The notes under the pieces: generated by a model
What the model was told of the DNA's origin: nothing
What the model saw: the letters and a program-made list of their open reading frames with translations, nothing else
Database searches by the model: none
Translations under genes and position numbers: made by a program
Source: Verrucomicrobiota bacterium
Lineage (GTDB): Bacteria; Verrucomicrobiota; Verrucomicrobiia; JABWAM01
Assembly (NCBI GenBank): GCA_016198745.1
Contig: JACQHZ010000078.1
Span: 1 to 52,483 of the forward strand
Direction: 5' to 3'
Length of the DNA stretch: 52,483 nucleotides
Shown here: piece after piece, positions 6,767 through 30,166 of the stretch
Layout of the letters: each line of letters opens with the position of its first letter
How positions within the stretch are numbered: the first letter of the stretch is position 1

Positions 6767-8350
6767 ATGAAGGTGCGATCACATCTCTTTCAACTGCCCG
6801 TCAACATCCAGGATATTCTGACCGGAAGAACGATGGAATGGGAACGGCTGGAGTTCAAGGCGGGATGGAATCCGGAAGCGGTATTGCACACGCTGTGCGC
6901 ATTTGCCAACGATTTCCATAACTTGGGCGGAGGTTATATCGTCATTGGAGTGGCAGAGGTGGATGGCCGCCCTGTCTTGCCACCCATCGGGTTGCAGATC
7001 AGGGAGATGGATCGCATCCAGAAGGAAATTGTCAGGCTGGGACATCTGATCATTCCGTTCTATCACCCTGTTATGGCCCCGTGCGAAATCAATGGACGGA
7101 TGGTTCTTGTGCTCCATGCTCCGGGTGGACAGGGACGACCCTACAAGGCGCCCGTTTCTCTGGGACAAGGCGGCAAAGAACATGGCTATTATTTGCGGAA
7201 AGGATCGGTGACAGTCCGGGCACAGCATCGGGATGAAGTGGAGCTGATTTCCATGGCAGCCTCGGTTCCTTTTGACGATCGGATGAATCAACAGGCCGAT
7301 CTGGACGATCTTGATCTGGGTTTGATTCGCACCTATCTCAAACGGGTGCGTAGTGATCTGCACAAAGTTTCCATCAATCTGAACTTCCTTCAACTTTGCC
7401 GCCGAATGAATCTGGTGGATGGTCCGGATGAGCGAGCCTGTCCCAAGAATGTGGGGCTGATGTTTTTTCATGAGCATCCGGAAAAATTCTTTCCCTGCAC
7501 GCAAATTGACGTCATCCATTTTCCGGACGGCCCGGGTGGGAATGAGTTTACCGAGAAAATATTCACAGGTCCGTTGGATCGTTTACTTTTGGATGCGCTC
7601 AATTTTCTTCAAGGTTCTCTTATTGAAGAAAAAGTGATCAAATTTCCGGATCGCGCGAAGGCCGACCGGTTTTTCAATTATCCTTTTGTGGCTATTGAAG
7701 AAGCGCTTGGGAACGCCATTTATCATCGGGCGTATGACATTCGTGAGCCGGTGGAAGTCCGTATTCTGCCTGACCGGATTCAAATTCACAGCGTACCCGG
7801 GCCGGATCGTTCCATACGCAACCAGGATATGCGGATTGGACGGTTTATTTCTCGTCGATATCGGAATCGACGGATCGGAGAGTTCCTAAAGGAGTTGGAT
7901 TTGACGGAAGGCCGAGGCACAGGTATCCCGAAAATGGTGCAGATGTTGGAACACAATGGTTCGCCACCTCCGGTTTTTCACACCGATGACGATCGCACCT
8001 TCTTCCTGACCGAGATTTTAATCCATCCGACCTTCAGTAAGATGGAGAAAAAGACAAGGCAAATGGGACAAGTCACCCCCCAAGTCACCCCCCAAGTCAC
8101 CCCCCAAGTCACCCTCCATATCGAAAGTTTACTGCGGGCGTTGACCAAGCCCATGACTCGGGGTGAAATTCAGGTCCGATTAAGGCTTTCAGATCGAAAA
8201 TATCTGAGAAAAAAAGTGCTTCTCCCAGCGTTACATTCGATGTGGATTATGATGACCCATCCGGACAAGCCAAATGCATCTAACCAACGATATGTGTTGA
8301 CCGATTTGGGACGGAAAATTTTAAAGCGAAAGAGAAAATCCCGTGCGTAG
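6767..8350 (+). CDS. AlbA_2/Schlafen-like DNA-binding domain protein, RecG-like with C-terminal ATPase-type region
   Basis: EWERLEFKAGWNPEAVLHTLCAFANDFHNLGGGYIVIGV (AlbA_2 core); EEALGNAIYHRAYDIREPVEVRI; VTPQ tandem near C-terminus. Confidence 0.8.
   Translation: MKVRSHLFQLPVNIQDILTGRTMEWERLEFKAGWNPEAVLHTLCAFANDFHNLGGGYIVIGVAEVDGRPVLPPIGLQIREMDRIQKEIVRLGHLIIPFYHPVMAPCEINGRMVLVLHAPGGQGRPYKAPVSLGQGGKEHGYYLRKGSVTVRAQHRDEVELISMAASVPFDDRMNQQADLDDLDLGLIRTYLKRVRSDLHKVSINLNFLQLCRRMNLVDGPDERACPKNVGLMFFHEHPEKFFPCTQIDVIHFPDGPGGNEFTEKIFTGPLDRLLLDALNFLQGSLIEEKVIKFPDRAKADRFFNYPFVAIEEALGNAIYHRAYDIREPVEVRILPDRIQIHSVPGPDRSIRNQDMRIGRFISRRYRNRRIGEFLKELDLTEGRGTGIPKMVQMLEHNGSPPPVFHTDDDRTFFLTEILIHPTFSKMEKKTRQMGQVTPQVTPQVTPQVTLHIESLLRALTKPMTRGEIQVRLRLSDRKYLRKKVLLPALHSMWIMMTHPDKPNASNQRYVLTDLGRKILKRKRKSRA
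8069..8116 (+). repeat. 12-bp tandem repeat within coding sequence (caagtcaccccc, three perfect copies plus one partial)
   Basis: Direct reading; encodes QVTPQVTPQVTPQVT. Confidence 0.95.
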
Positions 8351-11300
8351 TACCCCCTCCTTCCAAGAAGACCACATTTCGCAGGTGCCGGCGCTGCAGC
8401 TTTTGCAAAACCTGGGCTACATTTATCTGCGTCCGCAGGAGGTTCATTTGGAGCGGAAGGGCCGGCTTTCGAACGTGCTGCTGGAAGGCATCCTCGCGCA
8501 GCAACTCCGCAAGCTGAACCGCATCCGCTACCGGGGGCAATCCTGCGAGTTCAGCGAGGCGAACATTCAGGCGGCAATCCAGGCGCTCAAGGACATCCCG
8601 TTCGACGGGCTGGTGCGCACCAGCGAGAAGATTTACGATTTGCTGGTGCTGGGCAAAAGCTTCGAACAGACGATTGACGGCGATACCAAGAGCTTCACGC
8701 TGCATTTCATCAACTGGCGTGAGCCGGAGAAAAACGTCTTTCATGTCGCCGAGGAATTCGAGGTCGAGCGGACGGCGAGCAACCAGTTGTGCCGGCCGGA
8801 CATCGTGCTTTTCGTGAACGGCATCCCGTTGGCGGTGATCGAGTGCAAACGGCCCGACCTGAAAGCGCCGCTGGAACAGGCCATCTCGCAAAACATCCGC
8901 AATCAGGCCGACGATTACATCCCCAGGCTGTTCACGTTCGCACAACTGCTGGTGGGCGTGACGAAGAACGAGGCGGCTTACGGCACGACGGGGACGGGCG
9001 CCAAGTTTTGGCTGAAGTGGCGGGAATTGAAAGCCGGGAAGGCCGTGGAGCTTGCGCCGGAAGTCTCGGCGTTGATCAACAAGCCGCTGGCGAAGATCCA
9101 GAAGGACAAGCTGTTTGGGGACCGGTTCGGTTACGTCCGCGCCTATTTCGACGAACTGGAGGGAGAAGGGCGGCAAGTGACCGAGCAGGACCAGACGCTT
9201 TACAGCCTGTGCCGGCCCGAGCGTCTGGTGGAGTTGGCGTTCCGATTCATCGTGTTTGACGCGGGTGAGAAGAAGATCGCCCGCTACCCTCAGTACTTCA
9301 CCGTCAAGAGCATCATCGAACGGGTGCGCGAACTGGGGCGCGAAGGCCGGCGGCTCGGCGGCGTGGTGTGGCACACGCAGGGTTCGGGCAAGTCGCTGAC
9401 GATGGTGATGCTGGCGAAGGCGCTGGCGCTGGAGCCGAGCATCGAGAATCCCATCCTCGTGCTCGTGACCGACCGCGTGGACCTGGATGATCAGATCCGG
9501 AAGACGTTCCATCAATGCGGCAAGGATCCGGTGCAGGCGCTGACAGGCAAGCATCTGGCCAAACTCATCCGGGAGGGGACGGAAACCGTCATCACCACGG
9601 TGATTGACAAGTTTGAAGCGGCCCTGGAGGCGGGCGAGTTCAAGAATGAGTCGCCCAACATCTTCGTGCTGGTGGATGAGAGCCATCGCAGTGTCTATGG
9701 CCCCATTGGGGCGAAGATGGCGAAGGTGTTGCCGAAGGCGTGTTTCATCGGGTTCACCGGCACGCCGCTCATGAAGCAGGAGAAAAACACGGCGCGGCAT
9801 TTCGGCGGATTGATCGAGCCGGCCTACACGATTGACCAGGCGGTGAAAGACAAGGCGGTGGTGCCGCTGCTTTATGAGGGGCGGCTCGTGCTCCAACAGG
9901 TTGACCAAAAGGCCATTGATAAATGGTTCGCCATCGTGACCAAGCCGCTGAGCGAGGCGCAACGGGCTGACCTGAAGCGGAAGTTCTCCACCATCGAGCA
10001 GTTGAACAAGGCGGATCGGAAGATTTATGAGGCGGCCTTCGACATCAGCGAGCACTACAGCCGGAACTGGCAGGGGACGGACTTCAAGGCGCAGTTGGCC
10101 GCGCCGCGGAAGGACGCGGCGCTTAAATACAAGAAGTATCTGGACGAGTTTGGCAAGGTGACATCCGAGGTGGTGATCTCCGCCCCGGACACGCGCGAGG
10201 AGAACGAGGAGGCGCCGGAGGTGGACACGGAGGAGGTGCGGGCCTTCTGGAAGAAGATGATGGCGAAATACGGCGGCGAGAAGGAATACAACAAGCAGGT
10301 CATCAACGCCTTCAAACACGCCCCGGAGCCTGAAATCCTCATTGTGGTGAGCAAATTGCTCACCGGCTTTGACGCGCCCCGGAACACCGTGCTCTACGTT
10401 TGCCGGTCGCTGGTCGAGCACAACCTCCTGCAGGCGATTGCGCGCGTGAACCGTCTGCATGAAGGCAAGGACTTCGGCTACATCCTCGACTACTTCGGGG
10501 TGCTTCAAGAGTTGGGGAAGGCGATGGACGTTTACGGGAAGTTGCCGGACTTCGACAAGGCGGAGTTGGAGGGGACTGCGCGAAACGTGGCGGAGGAGGT
10601 GGCGAGCTTGCCGCAGAAACACTCCGAGTTGTGGGACGTGTTCAAGACGGTGAAGAACCGGCTGGATGAGGAGGAATACGAGCAACGGCTTCGGGACGAG
10701 GAATTACGCACCCGGTTTTACGAGAAACTCTGCGCTTATCACCGGGCGCTGGCGATCGCGCTTTCCACGATGGAATTCTTGCGGGACACGCCGGAGAAGA
10801 AAATCGAACGCTACAAGAAGGACCTGGCGTTTTTCCTGAACCTGCGGGTGGCGGTCAAGCGGCGCTACGCCGAGGAAATCGACTTCAAGGAATACGAAAA
10901 GAAGGTGCAGAAGCTCGTGGATACGCACGTGAAGTCGGAGGGCGTCCAGCAAATCACCGCGCCGGTGAACATCTTCGAACGGGAACAATTCCAGGCCGAA
11001 GTCGAGAAGCTGCAAACCGTCGCGTCGAAGGCGGACACCATCGCGCACCGGACCCAGAAGACGATCACCGAGAAGATTGACGAAGACCCGGTCTTTTACC
11101 GGCGCTTTTCCAAGGTCTTGCAGGAGGCGATCGAGGCCTACCGCCAGAAACGCATCAGCGACGCGGAGTACCTCAAACGGGCAACCGAGGCGATGACCTC
11201 CGTGTTGAATCGGACCGGAGACGAGTTGCCGCCGTCGCTTCAGGGGAACGACGCGGCCAAGGCGTTTTATGGCGTGGTCAACGAGGTCGTCAGCCGGGTC

Positions 11301-11564
11301 GTCGAGATGGGTTCGGCCTATTCAGCCATTGCGGCGGATGCCGCCCTGAAGATTGACGATACCATTCAGGAGAGCCTGGTCATTGATTGGACCGCGAATC
11401 TCGATCAACAGAACAAGATGCGGAACACCATCGAGGATGTGCTCTACGGCCTGAAGCATGAACACGCGGTTCCCCTTTCGAGCGAGGACATGGACGCCAT
11501 CATTGAGAATGCCCTCGACATCGCCAGAGTCCGGTATCGCCATGGACGAAGCAAAAAGGACTGA
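8343..11564 (+). CDS. hsdR: Type I RM restriction subunit HsdR
   Basis: NGIPLAVIECKRPD nuclease motif; GVVWHTQGSGKSLTMVMLA; LVDESHRSVYG; GFTGTPL; LLTGFDAP; QAIARVNR. Confidence 0.97.
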   Translation: MRSTPSFQEDHISQVPALQLLQNLGYIYLRPQEVHLERKGRLSNVLLEGILAQQLRKLNRIRYRGQSCEFSEANIQAAIQALKDIPFDGLVRTSEKIYDLLVLGKSFEQTIDGDTKSFTLHFINWREPEKNVFHVAEEFEVERTASNQLCRPDIVLFVNGIPLAVIECKRPDLKAPLEQAISQNIRNQADDYIPRLFTFAQLLVGVTKNEAAYGTTGTGAKFWLKWRELKAGKAVELAPEVSALINKPLAKIQKDKLFGDRFGYVRAYFDELEGEGRQVTEQDQTLYSLCRPERLVELAFRFIVFDAGEKKIARYPQYFTVKSIIERVRELGREGRRLGGVVWHTQGSGKSLTMVMLAKALALEPSIENPILVLVTDRVDLDDQIRKTFHQCGKDPVQALTGKHLAKLIREGTETVITTVIDKFEAALEAGEFKNESPNIFVLVDESHRSVYGPIGAKMAKVLPKACFIGFTGTPLMKQEKNTARHFGGLIEPAYTIDQAVKDKAVVPLLYEGRLVLQQVDQKAIDKWFAIVTKPLSEAQRADLKRKFSTIEQLNKADRKIYEAAFDISEHYSRNWQGTDFKAQLAAPRKDAALKYKKYLDEFGKVTSEVVISAPDTREENEEAPEVDTEEVRAFWKKMMAKYGGEKEYNKQVINAFKHAPEPEILIVVSKLLTGFDAPRNTVLYVCRSLVEHNLLQAIARVNRLHEGKDFGYILDYFGVLQELGKAMDVYGKLPDFDKAELEGTARNVAEEVASLPQKHSELWDVFKTVKNRLDEEEYEQRLRDEELRTRFYEKLCAYHRALAIALSTMEFLRDTPEKKIERYKKDLAFFLNLRVAVKRRYAEEIDFKEYEKKVQKLVDTHVKSEGVQQITAPVNIFEREQFQAEVEKLQTVASKADTIAHRTQKTITEKIDEDPVFYRRFSKVLQEAIEAYRQKRISDAEYLKRATEAMTSVLNRTGDELPPSLQGNDAAKAFYGVVNEVVSRVVEMGSAYSAIAADAALKIDDTIQESLVIDWTANLDQQNKMRNTIEDVLYGLKHEHAVPLSSEDMDAIIENALDIARVRYRHGRSKKD

Positions 11565-18826: not shown

Positions 18827-18896
18827 GGGCTGGAGTGTATGGGAGAGGGGTTAAATTTTACTTGCATTGATTTTGTTATAGCATATAGTGCATTTT

Positions 18897-20717
18897 ATGC
18901 CAAACGATAAACCCATTTCAGACTGGTTGATTCAGCTTCGCCATCACCTTGATTTGAGCCAAGAGGAACTGGCGGCGCGTCTGAATGTTTCGTTTGCCAC
19001 AGTAAACAGATGGGAACGGGGAAAAGTCAAACCCCAACAAACCCAACTCCAAGCCATTGAAAAACTGATGGCGGAAGCCGGTTTGACCGGGGAACCGGTC
19101 AAATCTGAAATGGCGGTGACTCCCAGCACGCGCCGTCGCCGGGGGCTGTCCGGCAGCAAGGTGTTGAGCACGAAATCCATGGAGCAGATGCTTTGGGATG
19201 CAGCCTGTTCAATTCGTGGCGAGAAGGATGCGCCAAAATTCAAGGATGACATCCTGCCTCTCCTTTTTATCAAACGTCTCTCCGATGTTTTCGACGATGA
19301 AATCCAACGACTGACCGAACAATTTGGCGAGCGCAAAACCGCGCTCGAAGTCCTGGAAGACGACCATTCTCTTGTGCGTTTCTATATCCCGCCCGAAGCG
19401 CGCTGGACGGTGGTGGGAGGAAGAGAAGCATTCAAATGGCCGAAAAATAGAGAGCCAAAATCCCTGGGTGAACAACTCACCACGACGATTCGCGCCATCG
19501 TGAAGGAGAACCCTTCGCTTGCGGGCGTGATTGACATCGTGGACTTCAACGAAACGCGAAACGGCGAGCGCGAAATCAGCGACGCGGCGCTGAAAGGCAT
19601 CATCGAGACATTCTCCGACCCGCGCTACCGACTTGGTCTGCATGACGTGGAGCCGGACTTCCTTGGCCGCTGCTACGAATATCTCCTGCGGAAATTCGCG
19701 GAGGGCCAGGGCCAGAGCGCGGGCGAATTTTTCACACCCACCGAGGTCGGTTTCCTTATGGCGGAAATCATGCGGCCGCGTCCTGGTGAGGAATGTTATG
19801 ACTATGCGTGCGGATCATTTGGTCTGCTTGTGAAGTTGCAGATTGTCTGCCGGCGGCTCGATCCGCTCAGCAAGGTGCCGCTCAAGCTCTGCGGACAGGA
19901 ATTGATGGGATCGAGCTACGCCATCGCGTGCATGAACAAAATCATTCATGACATGGAAGGCGAGATTTTGCGCGGCGATTCGATGCGCAACCCGAAGTTC
20001 AGGGAGGGCGACACGCGGCTGAAGAGGTTCGATATTGTGGTGGCCAATCCGATGTGGAATCAGCCGTTTGATCCGGAAGGTTACGAAAATGATCCATTTG
20101 GGCGCTTCGAGGAACAAGGCGGCATCACCACGGGTAAGGCGGATTGGGCATGGCTCCAGCACACGCTCGTCGCGATGAAGGACAGCGGACGCGCCGCCGT
20201 GGTGCTCGACACCGGCGCGGTCACGCGCGGCAGCGGCAGCAAGGGCGAAGACCGTGAGAAAACAATCCGCAAATGGTTCGTCGAGCAGGACGTGGTGGAC
20301 GGCGTGATTCTGCTGCCCGACAACCTTTTCTACAACACCACCGCGCCAGGCATCATCATGGTGCTGAACCGGCAGAAACCGAAATCGCGCAAGGGCAGGA
20401 TCGTGCTCGTCAACGCCGGCGCCGAGTTCAAGAAAGGCCAGCCGAAAAATTACATCCCCGAACCCGGCATCCGTAAAATCGCCGCCGCCTTCCTCGGCGG
20501 CGCGGACGTCGAAAAATTCGTCAAGATCATCACCACCGCCGAAGCCGCGCAAAACGATTACAACCTTTCCCCGTCTCGCTACGTCGGCACGGCCGCCGAC
20601 GAAACGTATCGGGAGATTCCGGAGATCGTGGCGGAACTGCGGCAACACGCACAGGAGGCAACCAAGGTCACAAGGGAACTGGACCGGATTCTGAAGCAGA
20701 TCGGAGTTGCGGGATGA
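18897..20717 (+). CDS. hsdM: Type I RM methyltransferase HsdM with N-terminal XRE helix-turn-helix domain
   Basis: [38 protein letters not shown] (XRE HTH) followed by HsdM ([30 protein letters not shown]). Confidence 0.93.
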
Positions 20718-20778
20718 AAACCGCCCCCCAGATCCGGGAGTCGGCGACTCTCGAATGGAGCACGCGCGTTCAGTGTGA

Positions 20779-20900
20779 CACAGGCTTCCAGCCTGTGAAA
20801 CCGGAGAGCACGGCCAAGATGGCCGTGTCACCCTCCTGCAATGGTGTACTCCCAAACGGATTTGCCAGACAGTGTCTGGCCAATAGTGCCGACGGCGTCC
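20779..20900. repeat. REP cluster with GTGACAC-type head
   Basis: CACAGGCT-TCC-AGCCTGTG (20779-20797); CACGGCCA-AGA-TGGCCGTG (20809-20827); GCCAGACA-G-TGTCTGGC further right. Confidence 0.8.
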
Positions 20901-21175: not shown

Positions 21176-21321
21176 ACGCCAATCGCTGGCAGAAAAAATG
21201 TTGTGGACAGGGACATCTTCCGTGCTAGTGTTGGTTTAGCACACCCGCCAAGCCTCTGGCCCAGCCATGCTCAAATGTGGCGGGTTTTTCTTTTTCCCGT
21301 TTTCCCTGTCGGGGGTGGTGG

Positions 21322-22212
21322 ATGAAATACGCCAAGCCGCCACTCACCTATGAGCAACAGGCCGACCTCCTGATCCAGCGTGGCTTGACGGTTAACCGTG
21401 ACTTGCTCATTAAACGATTGCAGGCGGTCAACTACTACCGACTCAGTGCATACTGCCGTCCGTTCAAGCAGGCGGACAACACGTTCAAGCCCGGCACAAC
21501 GTTTGACACAGTTTGGCAGCGTTACACCTTCGATCGTCAATTCCGTCTGCTTGTCATGGATGCCATTGAGCGAGTGGAAATCGCCATCCGCTCCCGTCTT
21601 GTTTACGAACTCGTGCATCGCTACGGCACATTTGCGCAACTCGATTTCCGCGCATTTCCCGGCATCCCTCCCGTCGAGCATCGGCGCCTGTTGGATGAAC
21701 TCCACGAAAATGCCCTCAAAAGTTCTGAGGCATTCGTGGGCCATTTCCGCCGCACTTATGACGAGTTTCCCGACATCCCGTTGTGGGCAGCCGCTGAAAC
21801 CATGACTTTCGGCCAGATGTTCACCATGTTTCGGCGCAGCGAAATGCACGTCCAGCGCGCCATTGCCACCGGCTACGGCATCAAGGGCAAAGTGTTGCTC
21901 TCCTGGCTATTGACCCTGAACTACGTGCGCAACCTTTGTGCCCACCACGCCCGCCTGTGGAATCGCGAACTCGCGATCAAACCGCTCATTCCATACGAGC
22001 GTCACGATCCCCGCTGGCATGCGCCATCGCCGGTGGACAATCACCGCATCTTCGTCGTCATCACATTGCTCCACTACCTGATGGGGCGTGTCGCTCCGCA
22101 AAGCCACTGGCGGCAACGGCTTTATGATCTTTTTGATCGTTACCCGGAAATTCCTTTGGCCGCCATGGGAATACCCGGTGACTGGAAAAATCATCCACTA
22201 TGGGTGTCGTAA
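21322..22212 (+). CDS. Abi_2 (AbiD/AbiF) family abortive-infection protein
   Basis: LTYEQQADLLIQRGL...LQAVNYYRLSAYCRPF...RVEIAIRSRLVYEL...NYVRNLCAHHARLWNRELAIKP (HEPN-like R-x4-H). Confidence 0.93.
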   Translation: MKYAKPPLTYEQQADLLIQRGLTVNRDLLIKRLQAVNYYRLSAYCRPFKQADNTFKPGTTFDTVWQRYTFDRQFRLLVMDAIERVEIAIRSRLVYELVHRYGTFAQLDFRAFPGIPPVEHRRLLDELHENALKSSEAFVGHFRRTYDEFPDIPLWAAAETMTFGQMFTMFRRSEMHVQRAIATGYGIKGKVLLSWLLTLNYVRNLCAHHARLWNRELAIKPLIPYERHDPRWHAPSPVDNHRIFVVITLLHYLMGRVAPQSHWRQRLYDLFDRYPEIPLAAMGIPGDWKNHPLWVS

Positions 22213-23435
22213 TGGACAACGAGACCAAAGATCTGGCAATGCCCAAAGGATGGAGTGTGACCATGCTGCGCTCCGTCTGCCACAAAACCTCCTTGTGGAA
22301 TCCCGAGCGGGAAAAGCGCGACCGCTTTCGCTACATCGACGTATCATCGGTTTCTAATGACCGCTTTTGCGTCACCGAGGCCCAAGAAATTTCTGCGGCC
22401 AGCGCCCCCAGCAGAGCGCGAAAGATCGTCAAGCGCGGAGACGTGATTTACGCCACCGTGCGCCCTTCGCTGAAAAGGGTGGCGTGGCTCGATTCTGAAT
22501 TCGACGACCAGATCGCATCCACCGCTTTCTGCGTCGTCCGAGCAGACTGCAAACAAGCTGTCTCACAATTCCTCTATTTTCTTCTTTTGAGCGATGACGT
22601 GAATCGCAAGATCATCAAGCACGAGCATGGCGCCAGTTATCCAGCGGTTACGGATAAGGATGTGCTGAATCAAGAAATCCCGCTTCCGCCCTTGCCAGAG
22701 CAGCAGCGCATCGCGGCGGTGTTGTGGAAGATTCAGAAGGCGGTGGAGATCGAGGATGCCATCGTGCGCAACGCGCGCGACCTGAAAAAATCCCTGCTGC
22801 GCCGCCTCTTCACCCGCGGCCTGCGCGGCGAGCCACAAAAAGAGACCGAAATTGGGCCGATTCCGGAAAGTTGGGACATTGTGTGCGTCGAATCGGCCGT
22901 TACGGCATTTCGGTTTTCCCGTGAAAGGCAAATTCCCGCTTCTCATTACAAGGCTACGGGGAAATTTCCAATCATTGACCAAGGGCAAGAGGTTGTAGCT
23001 GGCTATACGGACGATGAGAACAAAATCTTTGATCTGGCACACCCGCTCATCATCTTTGGAGATCACACACGCGCCATGAAATTCGTGGATTTTCCGTTTG
23101 CACTCGGAGCGGATGGAACAAAACCGCTTATTGCGTCCCCAGGTTTCGATCCTCTGTATTTATTTTTTGCACTTTGTTTTTTGGAAATACCCTCGCGAGG
23201 CTACAATCGCCATTTCAAGTTTCTCGCCGAATCTCTTATCCCCAAACCAGCAACGGAAGAGGAACAACAAAAAATCGCCCGCATCCTGCAAACTGTTGAC
23301 CGCAAAATCGAGGCGCATGAATCGAAAAAGCGTTCGCTGCAAGACCTGTTCAAGACGATGCTGCACAAACTGATGACCGCCCAAATCCGTGTCCACAATC
23401 TGGACATTGATACGAGTGCGGTGGAGACAGCATGA
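22212..23435 (+). CDS. hsdS: Type I RM specificity subunit HsdS
   Basis: EIPLPPLPEQQRIAAVLWKIQKAVEIEDAIVRNARDLKKSLLRRLFTRGLRGE; second TRD and C-terminal repeat. Confidence 0.95.
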   Translation: MDNETKDLAMPKGWSVTMLRSVCHKTSLWNPEREKRDRFRYIDVSSVSNDRFCVTEAQEISAASAPSRARKIVKRGDVIYATVRPSLKRVAWLDSEFDDQIASTAFCVVRADCKQAVSQFLYFLLLSDDVNRKIIKHEHGASYPAVTDKDVLNQEIPLPPLPEQQRIAAVLWKIQKAVEIEDAIVRNARDLKKSLLRRLFTRGLRGEPQKETEIGPIPESWDIVCVESAVTAFRFSRERQIPASHYKATGKFPIIDQGQEVVAGYTDDENKIFDLAHPLIIFGDHTRAMKFVDFPFALGADGTKPLIASPGFDPLYLFFALCFLEIPSRGYNRHFKFLAESLIPKPATEEEQQKIARILQTVDRKIEAHESKKRSLQDLFKTMLHKLMTAQIRVHNLDIDTSAVETA

Positions 23436-24625
23436 TCAATAAAAACTTTGACCAGATCGAAAAGGCCGATATCGAGGCGCTTGTGGCACATGCCGTCGGC
23501 GAGAGCCGAATGCTTGATTACAAGGAATCGCTACCCGGTGGTGTGGATGCTGATAAGCGGGAGTTTCTGGCCGATGTTTCCTCTTTTGCCAACGCATCAG
23601 GGGGCGACCTGATTTTTGGAATCCGCGAACAACGAGATGCGGCCAACAAGCCCACCAGCGTTCCCGAAGCCGTTTGCGGGTTGCCAGGTGTGAACGTGGA
23701 TGCAGAGAAATTGCGATTGGAAAACATCCTTCGCGATGGCCTCGATCCGCGGGCGCCCGGCATTCAGATTCGTGCAATCAATGGTTTTGAGGGCGGTCCG
23801 GTCATGCTTTTCCGCATTCCAAAAAGCTGGGCTTCGCCGCACATGGTCAAGTTCAGTTCGAGATTCTATTCGCGAAACAACGCTGGCAAATATCCTCTGG
23901 ATGTCCGCGAAATCCGCGCCGCATTTTTTCTCTCCCAGGACTTGCCTGAGCGGATTCGCCGATTCCGCGATGACCGCCTCGCAAAGATCGTCGCAAACGA
24001 AACGCCTTTGCCTTTGAGAGAGAAACCGAAGGTCGTTCTTCAGGTCCTGCCGATCACGTCTTTTGAGCCTGCCGCTGTTGTGGATGTGAAAACAATCCGT
24101 GATCCATTGGTCCGACTGAAACCCATCCCCGACTGCGGTTGTGATGGTCGCTTTAATTTTGATGGTTTTATAACTTTTTTTCAGCATCGAGAATCACCCT
24201 GCGCCGTGGCCTATACTCAATTGTTTCGAAATGGAGCGATTGAGGCCGTCGATACATTCCTCCTGGAACCTGGTTTTGATGACAAGAAGCAAATCCCGTC
24301 CGTCGATTTTGAGCGATATTTGATAAGTATCATTCAGCATTATCTGGAGACTGAAAGGCAATTGGAACTTCATCCGCCAATCTTTGTGGTGCTGACACTC
24401 CTGGGTGTGCATGGATACAGGATGGCTGTTGCCCCAGGACGGGAGAGTCGCATCCGACATCCGATTGACCGAGATTCGCTGCTGCTTCCCGAAGTCATCA
24501 TCGAGGATTTTGGCGTGAAGGTTGCGACGGTTCTCCGTCCTGTCTTCGATGCGCTCTGGCAGGCGGCGGGACACCGGGGCAGCCCCAACTACGATGAAAA
24601 CGACAATTGGAAGGCGCATGCTTAA
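23432..24625 (+). CDS. AlbA_2/Schlafen-like DNA-binding domain protein
   Basis: ESRMLDYKESLPGGVDADKREFLADVSSFANASGGDLIFGIRE; 4-bp overlap with hsdS. Confidence 0.85.
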   Translation: MINKNFDQIEKADIEALVAHAVGESRMLDYKESLPGGVDADKREFLADVSSFANASGGDLIFGIREQRDAANKPTSVPEAVCGLPGVNVDAEKLRLENILRDGLDPRAPGIQIRAINGFEGGPVMLFRIPKSWASPHMVKFSSRFYSRNNAGKYPLDVREIRAAFFLSQDLPERIRRFRDDRLAKIVANETPLPLREKPKVVLQVLPITSFEPAAVVDVKTIRDPLVRLKPIPDCGCDGRFNFDGFITFFQHRESPCAVAYTQLFRNGAIEAVDTFLLEPGFDDKKQIPSVDFERYLISIIQHYLETERQLELHPPIFVVLTLLGVHGYRMAVAPGRESRIRHPIDRDSLLLPEVIIEDFGVKVATVLRPVFDALWQAAGHRGSPNYDENDNWKAHA

Positions 24626-24928: not shown

Positions 24929-27900
24929 ATGAGCGCCAATCTCGCCAACGGAGCCGGCACGGTTCAGTTCCCCCTGGTGAAGCATGCCGAGGGCGTGGGA
25001 TGGACGGTTCTTCCCGATGCCGAGGCGCTCCACCGACGCGGCGGCGAAGCGGGTCTGTTCTTCTATGGCGAACTGGAGGCGGCCTTGCTCCGGCTCAATC
25101 CGGGGGTGGTGACGGCGGAAAATGTTCAGTCCATCGTCCAGCGGATGGAGAGTGTGCCCAAAACCATCGAAGGCAATCGCGAAATCCTTGAGTGGTTGCG
25201 CGGCAATCGGACGGTTTATGACGAACGGGAAAAGCGACATCGCAATGTGACGCTGATTGATTTCGTGAGCCTCGAACGAAACGTGTTTCACGTCACCTGC
25301 GAATGGACGTTCAAGACGGGCAACCGCAAGGGCAACCGCGCCGACGTCGTTTTCCTCGTGAACGGCGTTCCGGTTGCCATTGTCGAGAACAAGAACCCGA
25401 AATTGCCCGATGCCATGGAGCGCGCCATCCAGCAGCTTCGGCGCTACGAGGCGGAGACGCCCGAACTCCTGCTTGCGCCGCAGGTGTTCAACATCACGCA
25501 CCTGATCGAGTATTTCTACGGGGTCACCTGGAGCTATTCGCACAAGGGAATTTTCAACTGGAAAGAAGAAGTAGCTCAAGCTTCCAGCTTGAGAATCACA
25601 CCAGGGAACGTTCTTCCGGACCTGCAACCGTTCAATCCCTATGAACCGGTGGCCATCACCAACCGCAACCTGCCGCATTGGCAGCAGGAGGGCACAACGT
25701 ACTTTGTCACCTTTCGACTTGCGGATGCGCTGCCGCCAGCCCGTCTTCGAGAACTCGAGGAAGAACGAGAAACATGGCTGGCGCGTCACGGAACGCCAAA
25801 GACAAAAGAAGAGAAAGCGGACTATTATCGCTTGTTTTCTCAGCGGGTCGAAGACTGGCTTGATGCTGGAACCGGTTCGTGTGCGCTGGCCCGGTCTGAT
25901 TGTGGGCAGATTGTGGCGGACGCGTTGAAGCATTTCCATGGCCATCGGTATCGCCTCGGCGCATGGGTCGCGATGCCCAATCATATGCATGTTGTTTTCA
26001 CCCCTCTGGCGGGATATTCCTTGTCGAGCGTGATGCACAGTTGGAAGTCGTTCACGGCGAATCAAATCAACAAGTTGCTTGGGCGGACGGGGGAATTCTG
26101 GCAACACGAGTCCTTCGATCACATTGTCCGCGACGTGAGTGATCTGCATCGAATTGAAGAGTACGTCGCGAGGAATCCCGAAAAGGCGGGAGTGACATGT
26201 GCTCAACAGGGCGCAGGGTGGGTGTATCGGCGGGAAGATGATGAGAGACAAAACCAGGATGCTTCTTCTTCTGGAAACTACAAGCAGGATGCTTGTGTTA
26301 CTGTTGGGCATTACAAGCAGGATGCTTGTGCTACTTCTTTTGGGCAGGCCGTGCGGAGCTTTTTCGAGCGACGGAGTTTCCTGCTGATGCTCAAGGGGTG
26401 GATTCTCTTTTATCTCAAGGACGACGAACTTCAAAAAACGGTTCTGCGCCAGCATCAAACACGCGCGGCCACGAAGGTCGTGGCGCGGTGCGCAGATCAA
26501 ACCAAGCGGACGGGGCTGGTCTGGCACACGCAGGGTTCGGGCAAAACATTCACGCTGATCACCGCCGGCCGGCTCATTCTTGAGGATATCGATCACTTCC
26601 CCGGCGCGACGGTGATGCTGGTGGTGGATCGGAACGAGTTGGAGGGCCAGTTGTCGGGCTGGGTGGAGCGATTGGTCGGCGAGATGCAGGGACGAAACAT
26701 CAAGATCGCATACGCCGACTCGCGGGCGCGGCTCCAAGAGCTTCTCGACCAGGACTTTCGCGGCCTCATCATTTCGATGATTCACAAGTTCGAGGACATT
26801 CGAAAGGACAGTTGCAACCGGGCCAATTTCTACGTGTTGATTGACGAGGCTCACCGCTCCACGGGTGGCGACCTGGGCAGCTACCTCATGGCCGCGTTGC
26901 CGAATGCCACGCTCATTGGCTTTACGGGCACGCCGATTGACAAAACGGCGTATGGCCAGGGAACTTTCAAAGTGTTCGGGAAGGAAGACGAACAGGGCTA
27001 CCTCGATAAGTATTCCATCCGTGAGTCCATCAAGGATGGCACCACGCTCATCCTGCGTCACACACTGGCGCCAAGCACGATTCGTTTGCCTGAGGATTTG
27101 CTTGAAAAGGAATTCCTCAGCCTGGCCGAAGCCGAAGGCGTGAGTGATATCGAGGAATTGAATCGGATTCTTGATCGCGCGGTGAATTTGAAGGCGTTTC
27201 TCAAGGCGAATGATCGCGTGGATCAAGTGGCGCAGTTCGTCGCGGATCATTTCAAGAAGTCCGTCGAGCCACTTGGCTACAAGGCGTTTCTTGTGGCCGT
27301 GGATCGTGAGGCATGCGCGAAATACAAGGCTGCGCTCGACAAATATCTGCCGCCCGAGTATTCGACGGCGATCTACACGCAGAACGCTGCCGATGCCGTT
27401 GAGCGGCCGCTCGTTGCGAAGTTGCAACTTGATCCAGCTTCCGAAAAGAAAGCGCGCAAAGTGTTTCCGAAACCAGATCAGAACCCGAAAATCTTCATCG
27501 TCACCGACAAGCTGCTCACGGGCTACGACGCGCCGATCCTCTATTGCATGTATCTCGACAAACCGATGCGCGATCACGTTCTGCTGCAGGCGGTCGCGCG
27601 CGTGAATCGGCCTTACAAAGATGCGGCGGGCGTGAAAAAACCGTGCGGGTTGATCCTTGATTTTGTCGGCGTCTTGAAAGAGTTGAACAAGGCGCTTGCT
27701 TTCGACTCCGACGAAGTGAGCGGCGTGATCGAGAACCTTGATGTGCTTCTCTCGCGCTTCACGGAACTGATGGACGGCCGAGGAAGAGAATATCTCCAAG
27801 CCGCGGGTGGGGGTGGGAACGACGAAAAGCTGGAGAAGCTGCTTTACGAGACCTTCCTCGACAAGGAGAAGAGGCAGGAGTTCGTCGGGTTTTTCAAGGA

Positions 27901-28606
27901 GGTCGAGACCCTCTACGAGGTCCTGTCTCCCTCACCCGATCTGCGCGACTACATCGATGCCTATCACCGTCTCACTGACCTCTATGTCATGCTGCGCAAC
28001 GCGTATGGAAAAAAGACGACGTTTCACGGGGACATCGCGCGCAAGACGGAGAAGTTGGTGCGAGAGAGCGTGTCGGTTTATGGATTGGACCAATTGACGA
28101 AGACCGCTGAGTTCGACACCGAGGCGCTGGAGGCGTTGAAGCAAAAGGGAGGATCTGAAAACGCCAAGATCATCAACCTGGTGCGAAGCCTCCAGACCGC
28201 CGCTGCTCGGCGGGCCGAGAATGAACCTTATCTGATCCCCATCGCCGCGCGTGCGGAGGCGGTGATGGCCGCGTTGGAAGACCGTCAAGTTTCCACGAAG
28301 AAGGCCATGAACAGGATCGAGGCCATCGTGCGCGAGAAAATGCAGGCGGAAAACGAACGCAAGGAAACGAACCTCGATGCGAACACTTTCACGATCTATT
28401 GGCTCTTGAAACACGAAAAACTGGACCAGGAGTTGATTCTCGCCAAGGAGATCAACGCCCTTTATCTCCGTTTCCCGAACTGTGTGGTGAACGTGGAGGA
28501 ACAGCGTCAGTTGAAGGCAGAAATTTACAAATTGCTGCTGCGTGTCGTGAGCGGCAAGCGCATGGTGGAACTCACCGAGCAAATCTTGAAACTGAAGCGC
28601 CAATGA
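24929..28606 (+). CDS. hsdR: Type I RM restriction subunit HsdR interrupted in frame by a complete RAYT (REP-associated tyrosine transposase)
   Basis: HsdR nuclease part (NGVPVAIVENKNP) and helicase part (GLVWHTQGSGKTFTLI, LIDEAHRSTGG, GFTGTPIDK, LLTGYDAP) separated by about 255 aa of RAYT. Confidence 0.95.
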   Translation: MSANLANGAGTVQFPLVKHAEGVGWTVLPDAEALHRRGGEAGLFFYGELEAALLRLNPGVVTAENVQSIVQRMESVPKTIEGNREILEWLRGNRTVYDEREKRHRNVTLIDFVSLERNVFHVTCEWTFKTGNRKGNRADVVFLVNGVPVAIVENKNPKLPDAMERAIQQLRRYEAETPELLLAPQVFNITHLIEYFYGVTWSYSHKGIFNWKEEVAQASSLRITPGNVLPDLQPFNPYEPVAITNRNLPHWQQEGTTYFVTFRLADALPPARLRELEEERETWLARHGTPKTKEEKADYYRLFSQRVEDWLDAGTGSCALARSDCGQIVADALKHFHGHRYRLGAWVAMPNHMHVVFTPLAGYSLSSVMHSWKSFTANQINKLLGRTGEFWQHESFDHIVRDVSDLHRIEEYVARNPEKAGVTCAQQGAGWVYRREDDERQNQDASSSGNYKQDACVTVGHYKQDACATSFGQAVRSFFERRSFLLMLKGWILFYLKDDELQKTVLRQHQTRAATKVVARCADQTKRTGLVWHTQGSGKTFTLITAGRLILEDIDHFPGATVMLVVDRNELEGQLSGWVERLVGEMQGRNIKIAYADSRARLQELLDQDFRGLIISMIHKFEDIRKDSCNRANFYVLIDEAHRSTGGDLGSYLMAALPNATLIGFTGTPIDKTAYGQGTFKVFGKEDEQGYLDKYSIRESIKDGTTLILRHTLAPSTIRLPEDLLEKEFLSLAEAEGVSDIEELNRILDRAVNLKAFLKANDRVDQVAQFVADHFKKSVEPLGYKAFLVAVDREACAKYKAALDKYLPPEYSTAIYTQNAADAVERPLVAKLQLDPASEKKARKVFPKPDQNPKIFIVTDKLLTGYDAPILYCMYLDKPMRDHVLLQAVARVNRPYKDAAGVKKPCGLILDFVGVLKELNKALAFDSDEVSGVIENLDVLLSRFTELMDGRGREYLQAAGGGGNDEKLEKLLYETFLDKEKRQEFVGFFKEVETLYEVLSPSPDLRDYIDAYHRLTDLYVMLRNAYGKKTTFHGDIARKTEKLVRESVSVYGLDQLTKTAEFDTEALEALKQKGGSENAKIINLVRSLQTAAARRAENEPYLIPIAARAEAVMAALEDRQVSTKKAMNRIEAIVREKMQAENERKETNLDANTFTIYWLLKHEKLDQELILAKEINALYLRFPNCVVNVEEQRQLKAEIYKLLLRVVSGKRMVELTEQILKLKRQ
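25571..26334 (+). mobile_element. REP-RAYT element (REPtron) inserted in frame in hsdR
   Basis: NRNLPHWQQEGTTYFVTFRLADALPP...AMPNHMHVVFTPL (HUH) ...IEEYVARNPEKAGV (Tyr); left GTAG + CTCAAGCT-TCC-AGCTTGAG (25571-25593), right ACAAGCA-GGA-TGCTTGT twice (26280-26296, 26313-26329) ending in CTAC. Confidence 0.92.
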
Positions 28607-29107: not shown

Positions 29108-29240
29108 GATGTTTCGTCAACCGGGTCCCAATGGGCCTTCCGAAAGCGAGATCAGGAGTTGCGAAGCCAGGAGCTTCACTCCTGGCTTCGCAACTCCTGG
29201 CAAGGCGGCGCGGGCGCGGAATCGAATCCGCGCTCGCTTT
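29072..29240 (+). ncRNA. Candidate retron ncRNA (msr-msd) upstream of the RT
   Basis: Stem-loops ACCGTC-GCTTT-GGCGGT, GGTTGA-TGTTTCG-TCAACC (29104-29122), GGTCC-CAAT-GGGCC; perfect 21-bp inverted repeat 29153-29173/29179-29199; hairpin GCGCGGA-ATCGAA-TCCGCGC; enclosing IR AAAGCGAG/CTCGCTTT (29143-29150/29233-29240). Confidence 0.45.
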
Positions 29241-29272: not shown

Positions 29273-30166
29273 ATGGGACTGGTTGACCTGTTCAAAAATC
29301 TGTTTCGAGGTCCGGACAAGGGATTCGGCGTGGATGAACTTTCCCGCAGGTTGGGAATGAAGTCCGAGGAACTTCGCGCCGTGGCAGTCGTCTATCGCGA
29401 TTTTACAATCACCAAACGGGCCGGGGGCGTTCGCAGAATCACGGCGCCCGATCCCAAACTGAAGTCCCTTCAGCGCCGCATCCTCCGGCGATTGCTCGCC
29501 CGTCTGGAATGCCATCCATCCGTCACCGGGTTTGAGGCGGGACATTCGATCGTCACCAACGCGCTTTGTCACACGGGCAAGGCGGTTGTCGTTCGCATGG
29601 ATTTGAAGGATTTTTTTGAAAAGACCGCTGCGGGCCGGTTGGGCAAATACTTCCGGAAAATCGGCTGGAACCGGGAGGCAAGCGGCCTGCTCATGCAGTG
29701 GTGCGCCCATCAAGGAGGGCTTCCGCAAGGCGCACCCACCAGCCCGCGTCTCAGCAACCTGCTCAATTACGGTCTGGACATTCGCTTGTCGAAGCTGGCT
29801 GAGAAATTCGGCGCAGTTTATACGCGGTACGCGGATGATCTGACGTTTTCTTTCGACGACGACCAGCCGGGCGCCATCCGGCAACTGATCCATCTGGCCG
29901 ACAAAATTGTCCGGGAACAAGGCTACACGCTTCATCAACACAAGAAACTCCATATCCGTCGCCGCCACGATCGTCAGGTGGTCACCGGCCTGGTGGTCAA
30001 TCAGAAGGTCAATCTGCCGCGGCGGACGAGGCGTTGGCTGCGCGCGATCGAACATCGCGCCGCGATGGGCGGCGGGGCTACGCTCACCCCGGAACAACGG
30101 CAGGGATGGAAGACGCTTCAGGCAATGATCGCGGAACAGTCCGGTGCGGCCAATCGTCCGCATTGA
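29273..30166 (+). CDS. Retron-type reverse transcriptase
   Basis: SIVTNALCHTGK (NAxxH), MDLKDFFEK, GGLPQGAPTSPRLSNLL, YTRYADDLTFSF, VTGLVVN: matches remembered Ec86 retron RT layout. Confidence 0.93.
   Translation: MGLVDLFKNLFRGPDKGFGVDELSRRLGMKSEELRAVAVVYRDFTITKRAGGVRRITAPDPKLKSLQRRILRRLLARLECHPSVTGFEAGHSIVTNALCHTGKAVVVRMDLKDFFEKTAAGRLGKYFRKIGWNREASGLLMQWCAHQGGLPQGAPTSPRLSNLLNYGLDIRLSKLAEKFGAVYTRYADDLTFSFDDDQPGAIRQLIHLADKIVREQGYTLHQHKKLHIRRRHDRQVVTGLVVNQKVNLPRRTRRWLRAIEHRAAMGGGATLTPEQRQGWKTLQAMIAEQSGAANRPH

Follow-up and report, generated by a model that had tools for sequence, protein, structure and literature searches.

How does a complete transposase come to lie inside a restriction gene with the frame still open? 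The question is posed by a 52,483-nucleotide stretch of DNA from a member of the Verrucomicrobiota (all of it referred to below as the window), in which one ORF of 1225 aa (24929-28606, + strand) is open throughout and reads as a type I HsdR with an in-frame RAYT. An earlier note on this DNA had described it as a full RAYT within hsdR, making a nuclease-HUH-helicase ORF, and had left three readings side by side: a domesticated chimera, a non-disruptive insertion and a recent inactivating event. The description holds: the frame is stop-free and the order of its Pfam domains agrees (Table 1). The single hsdR case is thus borne out; what was missed is that the arrangement recurs, both elsewhere in this genome and in other phyla.

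Table 1. The interrupted hsdR gene, its guest and its partner genes (nucleotide positions are those of the window; domains are given as residues of the 1225-aa ORF)
Feature	Position	Strand	Basis
hsdM, same type I system	18888..20717	+	MTase_I, E 2.4e-160
hsdS, same type I system	22200..23435	+	Methylase_S, Specificity_I
hsdR 5' part: N-terminal nuclease domain, last residues ...GIFNWKEE	24929..25570	+	HSDR_N; gapless junction vs homologues
In-frame insert REP + RAYT + REPs, 256 codons	25571..26338	+	absent from L058, L059, L067; stop-free
Left REP GTAGCTCAAGCTTCCAGCTTG, translated VAQASSL	25571..25591	+	GTAG-hairpin pattern
RAYT core, Y1/HUH transposase domain	25637..26206	+	NF047646, PF01797
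HUH motif MPNHMH, residues 349-354	25973..25990	+	sequence; H-x-H invariant in alignment A1
Candidate catalytic tyrosine Y412 (EEYVARNPEKAG)	26162..26164	+	invariant Tyr column, alignment A1
Inner right REP GTAACACAAGCATCCTGCTTG, GTAA-tagged	26281..26301	-	hairpin pattern
Outer right REP GTAGCACAAGCATCCTGCTTG, host-frame reading YKQDACATS, GTAG-tagged	26314..26334	-	hairpin pattern
hsdR 3' part: SF2 helicase motor (QGSGKT, DEAH, TGYDAP) + C-terminal domains	26339..28606	+	SWI2_SNF2; TIGR00348 413.9 bits
HSDR_N	residues 16-188		Pfam, E 2.5e-27
REP_Tyr_transpos	residues 324-423		Pfam/NCBIfam domain search
Y1_Tnp	residues 340-415		Pfam/NCBIfam domain search
SWI2_SNF2, then remaining HsdR	residues 509-735		E 1.6e-50

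The interrupted hsdR gene

HsdR homologues without the insert (L058, L059, L067) align continuously on both sides of it: the empty site is found, zero HsdR residues are lost, and no removal of HsdR sequence is seen. By this alignment the insert is residues 215-470. The coordinates in the earlier note span 764 nt, from one outer GTAG tag to the other; the excess sequence comes to 768 nt, and the host junction therefore does not fall exactly at GTAG. The nearest insert-free HsdR for the window copy is merely 53-58% identical (L067: 53% in the N part, 58% over residues 471-1223, with a single gap). Since the junction is filled by ~28 unrelated residues in L067 and by just a few in L059, the insertion spot is naturally variable; the nuclease/helicase boundary, taken at the outset for a place that might tolerate a domain, is a permissive linker. 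The ORF retains what identifies an HsdR, that is, the nuclease domain and the SF2 motor, with ENK, QGSGKT, DEAH and TGYDAP all found, and the partner genes hsdM and hsdS are both in the window. These intact motifs, the neighboring partner genes, and analogy with nested hosts elsewhere (considered below) argue that the HsdR-RAYT-HsdR protein probably retains restriction activity.

(The neighborhood deserves a parenthesis of its own. A second type I HsdR, 1073 aa and uninterrupted, is encoded at 8343-11564. Within 21277-24625, an AbiD/Abi_2 gene separates hsdM from hsdS and an AlbA_2/Schlafen-type gene separates hsdS from hsdR, the whole forming a layered defence locus. A retron-like reverse transcriptase ORF follows at 29273-30166, its best NCBIfam matches being retron RTs, below cutoff; a perfect 21-nt inverted repeat at 29153-29199, just 5' of it, is possibly part of its ncRNA.)

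The guest is recognizably of the TnpA-REP family: it has the Y1_Tnp (HUH) domain, an HUH motif with a single candidate Tyr, and opposed GTAG palindromes. PF01797 scores above its cutoff, the best NCBIfam match, NF047646, reaches 72 bits, just under the cutoff of 80, and the closest solved relative in a sequence search against the PDB is the TnpA-REP 4er8 (E 1.3e-8). The HUH motif and the tyrosine singled out in the earlier note both occupy invariant columns of the alignment. No ATG lies upstream of the HUH motif. The hairpin pattern has three matches in the whole window, all of them at the cassette, against 0.06 expected, and the arms 25566-25604 and 26301-26339 are 77% complementary. The bounding hairpins are indeed GTAG-tagged and opposed, as first described, but the REP copies number more than two: the two hairpins are accompanied by an additional, weaker repeat on the right-hand side, with a period of 30-33 nt.

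Exact copies of the window's REP outside the cassette were sought in its own genome and none was found. Two other kinds of repeat were noted there. A REP-like sequence unlike the window's REP, GTAGGGCAAGCGGCCCGCTTG, is present in seven identical dispersed copies (contigs C61, C117, C170, C326, C338, C416 and C445 of this genome, G000), and two intergenic palindromes 3' of hsdM (20774-20831, around CACAGGCTTCCAGCCTGTG and CACGGCCAAGATGGCCGTG) resemble a BIME of another REP family.

An AlphaFold model of residues 1-940 has the nuclease, RAYT and motor domains folded with confidence (the RAYT mostly at pLDDT about 90) and the REP-encoded linkers at pLDDT <50. The placement of the domains relative to one another is uncertain (pTM 0.54); the model fits an independently folded guest on flexible linkers. 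HsdR and helicase structures are among the matches listed by Foldseek for the 940-residue model.

Recurrence in other genes and other genomes

A RAYT search of the window's own genome yields six strong copies, and the open frames that contain them are all 1227-1514 aa long. The hosts, identified from translations, Pfam and host clustering, are two HsdRs (the window's and that of contig C203), an HsdR-like protein (C19), Eco57I-type methylases (C377, C517) and an SNF2 helicase (C52). The two HsdRs are interrupted at the identical position, after NxFNWK; a relative of the C203 gene in another genome of the same family (L058, in G002), about 82-83% identical in DNA, has no cassette.

Beyond this genome, a pattern scan based on the RAYT alignment and run over GTDB species genomes collected 80 loci, the RAYT lying mid-ORF in 38 of the 80, in a scan seeded with mostly nested copies; in a wider class search, long and short open frames were mixed likewise. 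The master table lists 96 nested loci among 183, a proportion that is not a population frequency, the nested loci having been picked in part for their long frames. Pfam identifies as hosts three tRNA synthetases (ValRS, LeuRS, AlaRS); CarB, MetH, Sua5, IspG (GcpE), a FabA-like protein, a glycosyltransferase, an adenosine deaminase, PcnB and a ClpB-like ATPase; and, on the side of DNA metabolism and restriction-modification, XseA, a DinG-like helicase, PriA, RecG, MmeI, Eco57I and several types of HsdR. The list has others besides, and the host halves on either side of the RAYT share one frame. The hosts come from records of Verrucomicrobia, Planctomycetes, Chloroflexales, Bacteroidota and Proteobacteria, isolates among them (for example Flavobacterium branchiophilum, L124, and Pontiellaceae B12227, L066). 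The PLSDB plasmids have no RAYT relative at E 1e-20.

A strict GTAG REP hairpin stands on both sides of 25 of 88 nested copies and of none of 88 control windows; other copies may have diverged tags. The phase of GTAG in nested cassettes is never the one that would read TAG. Among 65 stand-alone copies, none lies antisense or in another frame within an open host ORF, a count that covers open hosts only.

Are these composite proteins made, and do they work? In the 25 codons that precede the core, an ATG is found in 17 of 88 nested copies versus 38 of 58 stand-alone ones. Because that ATG is mostly missing, the nested RAYT is probably translated together with its host, as part of the host protein; counting any start (ATG, GTG or TTG) within 25 codons gives 41 of 88, and GTG or TTG near some cores leaves room for separate translation. 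HUH and Tyr motifs are both kept in 79 of 89 nested copies. For related nested pairs, dN/dS by the NG86 method (a rough comparison, several dS values being >1) falls at 0.04-0.25 in the RAYT, and the host flanks on both sides give about 0.03-0.3: by this codon-level measure, guest and host halves alike evolve under purifying selection. Moreover, the nested ValRS is the sole ValRS match in four genomes (G036, which is 100% complete, G256, G384 and G385), LeuRS has a single match in nine of nine genomes tested, and CarB has one match each in G281, G256, G338, G315 and G204. Preserved catalytic motifs, low dN/dS and sole-copy ValRS, LeuRS and CarB together make it very probable that the interrupted host genes are functional.

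Site turnover and the choice of explanation

The LeuRS genes of one genus (g111) offer a view of the cassette coming and going. Most species have frames of about 864-929 aa, two have frames of 1103 aa, and the DNA shows one loop in three states: empty in G397, occupied by a single REP in G396, and occupied by a complete cassette in G246 and G362; the left LeuRS flanks of G397 and G246 are 96% identical. Between G246 and G362, identity goes up at the left REP and down after the right REP, and the RAYT dS is 0.109 versus 0.505 and 0.458 for the host flanks: judged by synonymous divergence, the flanks are four to five times as old as the cassette between them. A RAYT dS so far below that of the flanks, with edges at the REPs, implies that it moved after the hosts split. 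CarB tells a related story: in the congeners G256 and G281 the host is 95% identical and the RAYT 57%, and a sister relationship of the two RAYTs is rejected (AU p 0.014, for a pair picked post hoc, after inspection of the tree); other congeners are RAYT-free in CarB, where the site shows remnants or palindromes that resemble REPs.

Not all is turnover. In two pairs, L049/L091 and L090/L097, RAYT dS is near host dS (about 0.8 in both parts of L049/L091), values that fit vertical descent, so that part of the pattern is plain inheritance. In a tree of 169 cores, RAYTs from the same host gene tend to cluster (the shuffle control concerns nested versus stand-alone copies only). Splicing aside, this mixture of inheritance, loss and replacement resembles the life cycle of a homing element.

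These comparisons point, with considerable confidence, to a mobile REP-RAYT cassette that inserts in frame and unspliced into permissive loops, is probably translated by its host and re-invades the same sites. No stop interrupts its frame anywhere along its length, both palindromes included; if it landed in a surface loop or an interdomain linker, in the sense orientation and in phase, it would give the host an extra domain instead of knocking it out. The RAYT would be made by read-through within the host protein, on flexible linkers encoded by the REPs, and would cut REP ends in single-stranded form, as is known for HUH/Y1 enzymes, copying or moving the cassette; insertions would survive solely where host function is preserved. 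At favored sites (the LeuRS loop, the CarB interdomain loop, the linker between nuclease and motor of HsdR) a cassette would be inherited for a while, then be lost, leaving an in-frame REP, and then be replaced by a related cassette from another species. The 1225-aa protein of the window would be one outcome. One can go further and think of these cassettes as unspliced in-frame "homing" elements: start-less HUH transposases that live as domains of essential bacterial proteins, are translated by the host, spread between species into the same loop, are lost as solo REPs and are replaced. For this fuller statement belief and doubt are evenly balanced; random insertion followed by selection, together with horizontal transfer, could yield much of the pattern without directed homing.

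Might HsdR and other proteins instead have recruited the RAYT as a useful ssDNA-nuclease domain, kept for the benefit of the host? Many hosts are nucleic-acid enzymes (HsdR, Eco57I, MmeI, DinG, RecG, PriA, SNF2), the catalytic motifs of the RAYT are conserved under purifying selection, and some insertions are old and vertical (L049/L091). However, CarB, MetH, the FabA-like protein, IspG, the glycosyltransferase and Sua5 are hosts as well, the distribution of RAYTs within genera is patchy, with one replacing another at a given site, and the cassettes retain their own REP ends; domestication is accordingly an unlikely account. The chimera proposed for this one HsdR fares no better: because RAYTs of the same clade are nested in dozens of unrelated genes and turn over at fixed sites, the unit is a mobile cassette and not an innovation of HsdR. 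Nor is it at all likely that a recent insertion inactivated hsdR and the frame is open by chance. Restriction-modification genes are often dispensable and a young insertion need not have acquired stops yet; against this, zero HsdR residues are missing, the arrangement recurs in sole-copy ValRS, LeuRS and CarB, and in other nested pairs the host flanks are under purifying selection on both sides. Among the original readings it is the non-disruptive insertion that survives, upheld by the lossless flank alignment, the permissive linker and those sole copies elsewhere. (Coincidence as the source of the open frame, considered separately, is set aside on the strength of recurrence and codon-level selection.)

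Conserved genes, often fixed sites and presence/absence polymorphism make up the pattern of inteins and introns, and would suit an element that removes itself by intein-like protein splicing or as an IStron-like intron. That possibility is hard to credit: Pfam finds no splicing (Hint) domain in any nested protein scanned, the RAYT and REPs use up the length of the insert, and an intron would have no need of staying in frame; a search of 25300-26600 turned up no ribozyme core or Rfam match up to E 0.5. An assembly artefact or a MAG chimera, finally, has next to nothing in its favor beyond the state of the window's genome, a 522-contig assembly that is 74% complete. The earlier note had raised the same worry about the continuous frame, and it is dispelled by recurrence of the arrangement in isolates and many independent assemblies, by orthologous nested pairs that share the codon position in different genomes, and by codon-level selection in insert and flanks.

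Known elements and their bearing

Selfish DNA in essential genes normally requires self-splicing. The nested cassettes seem to survive through being tolerable as protein, and this would open a third route into essential genes, beside introns and inteins. Inteins with homing endonucleases are alike in lying in frame in conserved genes, at fixed sites, with patchy distribution and transfer between species; they differ in that the cassettes have no detected splicing domain, that an HUH single-strand transposase takes the place of the homing endonuclease, and that the cassettes, at the sites examined, sit in what resemble variable loops and not conserved active-site motifs. IStrons, which combine an IS200/IS605 transposase with a group I intron, likewise place a Y1 transposase element in a gene without disrupting it, but do so by RNA splicing, whereas no ribozyme was found in the window cassette. 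A further parallel, an unspliced, stop-free homing insert within a host ORF, is the ShiLan domain of a phage methylase, in which the HNH is out of frame (PMC11855218); the RAYT shares the frame of its host, has REPs on either side, and occurs in dozens of bacterial genes.

The cassette itself has the build of a REPtron, a RAYT flanked by GTAG REPs (PMC3733652; for the RAYT/REPIN literature see PMC3116915, PMC3686654, PMC8266576), with a TnpA-REP-family HUH/Y1 transposase between opposed GTAG hairpins. RAYTs known so far are regarded as genes in their own right, each having a start and a stop; the frame of a nested RAYT crosses both REPs into the host ORF. In-frame palindromes within coding genes also have precedents, in intragenic REPs and BIMEs and in the palindromic elements of Rickettsia. 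As far as the available part of Di Nocera 2013 goes (PMC3733652), such in-frame intragenic REPs, many of them in repair genes, are REP-sized only; tRNA synthetases are also among the hosts of the GTAG REPs and BIMEs, and O. terrae is richest in GTAG cases. Such intragenic REPs and Rickettsia elements come to about 20-82 residues and are enzyme-free, whereas the nested cassettes include a whole transposase. The two are linked by the solo REPs that occupy these very sites in LeuRS and CarB. The literature compared with the nested RAYTs included Quentin 2018 (PMC6006769), and a search of the main texts of the open-access literature found no account of entire RAYTs lying in frame within host genes: intragenic REPs are already known, while whole in-frame RAYTs on this scale are, within those texts, apparently new.

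With such cassettes in hand, it becomes testable how RAYTs and REPs maintain themselves and spread, and the insertion sites provide a natural inventory of loops into which a protein can take a domain of roughly 230-260 residues. The nested cassettes would also account for unusually long "fusion" proteins, which an earlier survey took for gene fusions or annotation errors and removed.

Two further frames should be recorded. At locus L194 (G179:C9) a LeuRS-RAYT frame is open for ~2000 aa, apparently extending past LeuRS into additional sequence. At L185 (G241:C330) two tandem RAYT copies with an identical core share one frame of 717 aa, whose N-terminal portion may not be the true host frame; the identity of the cores suggests a very recent duplication.
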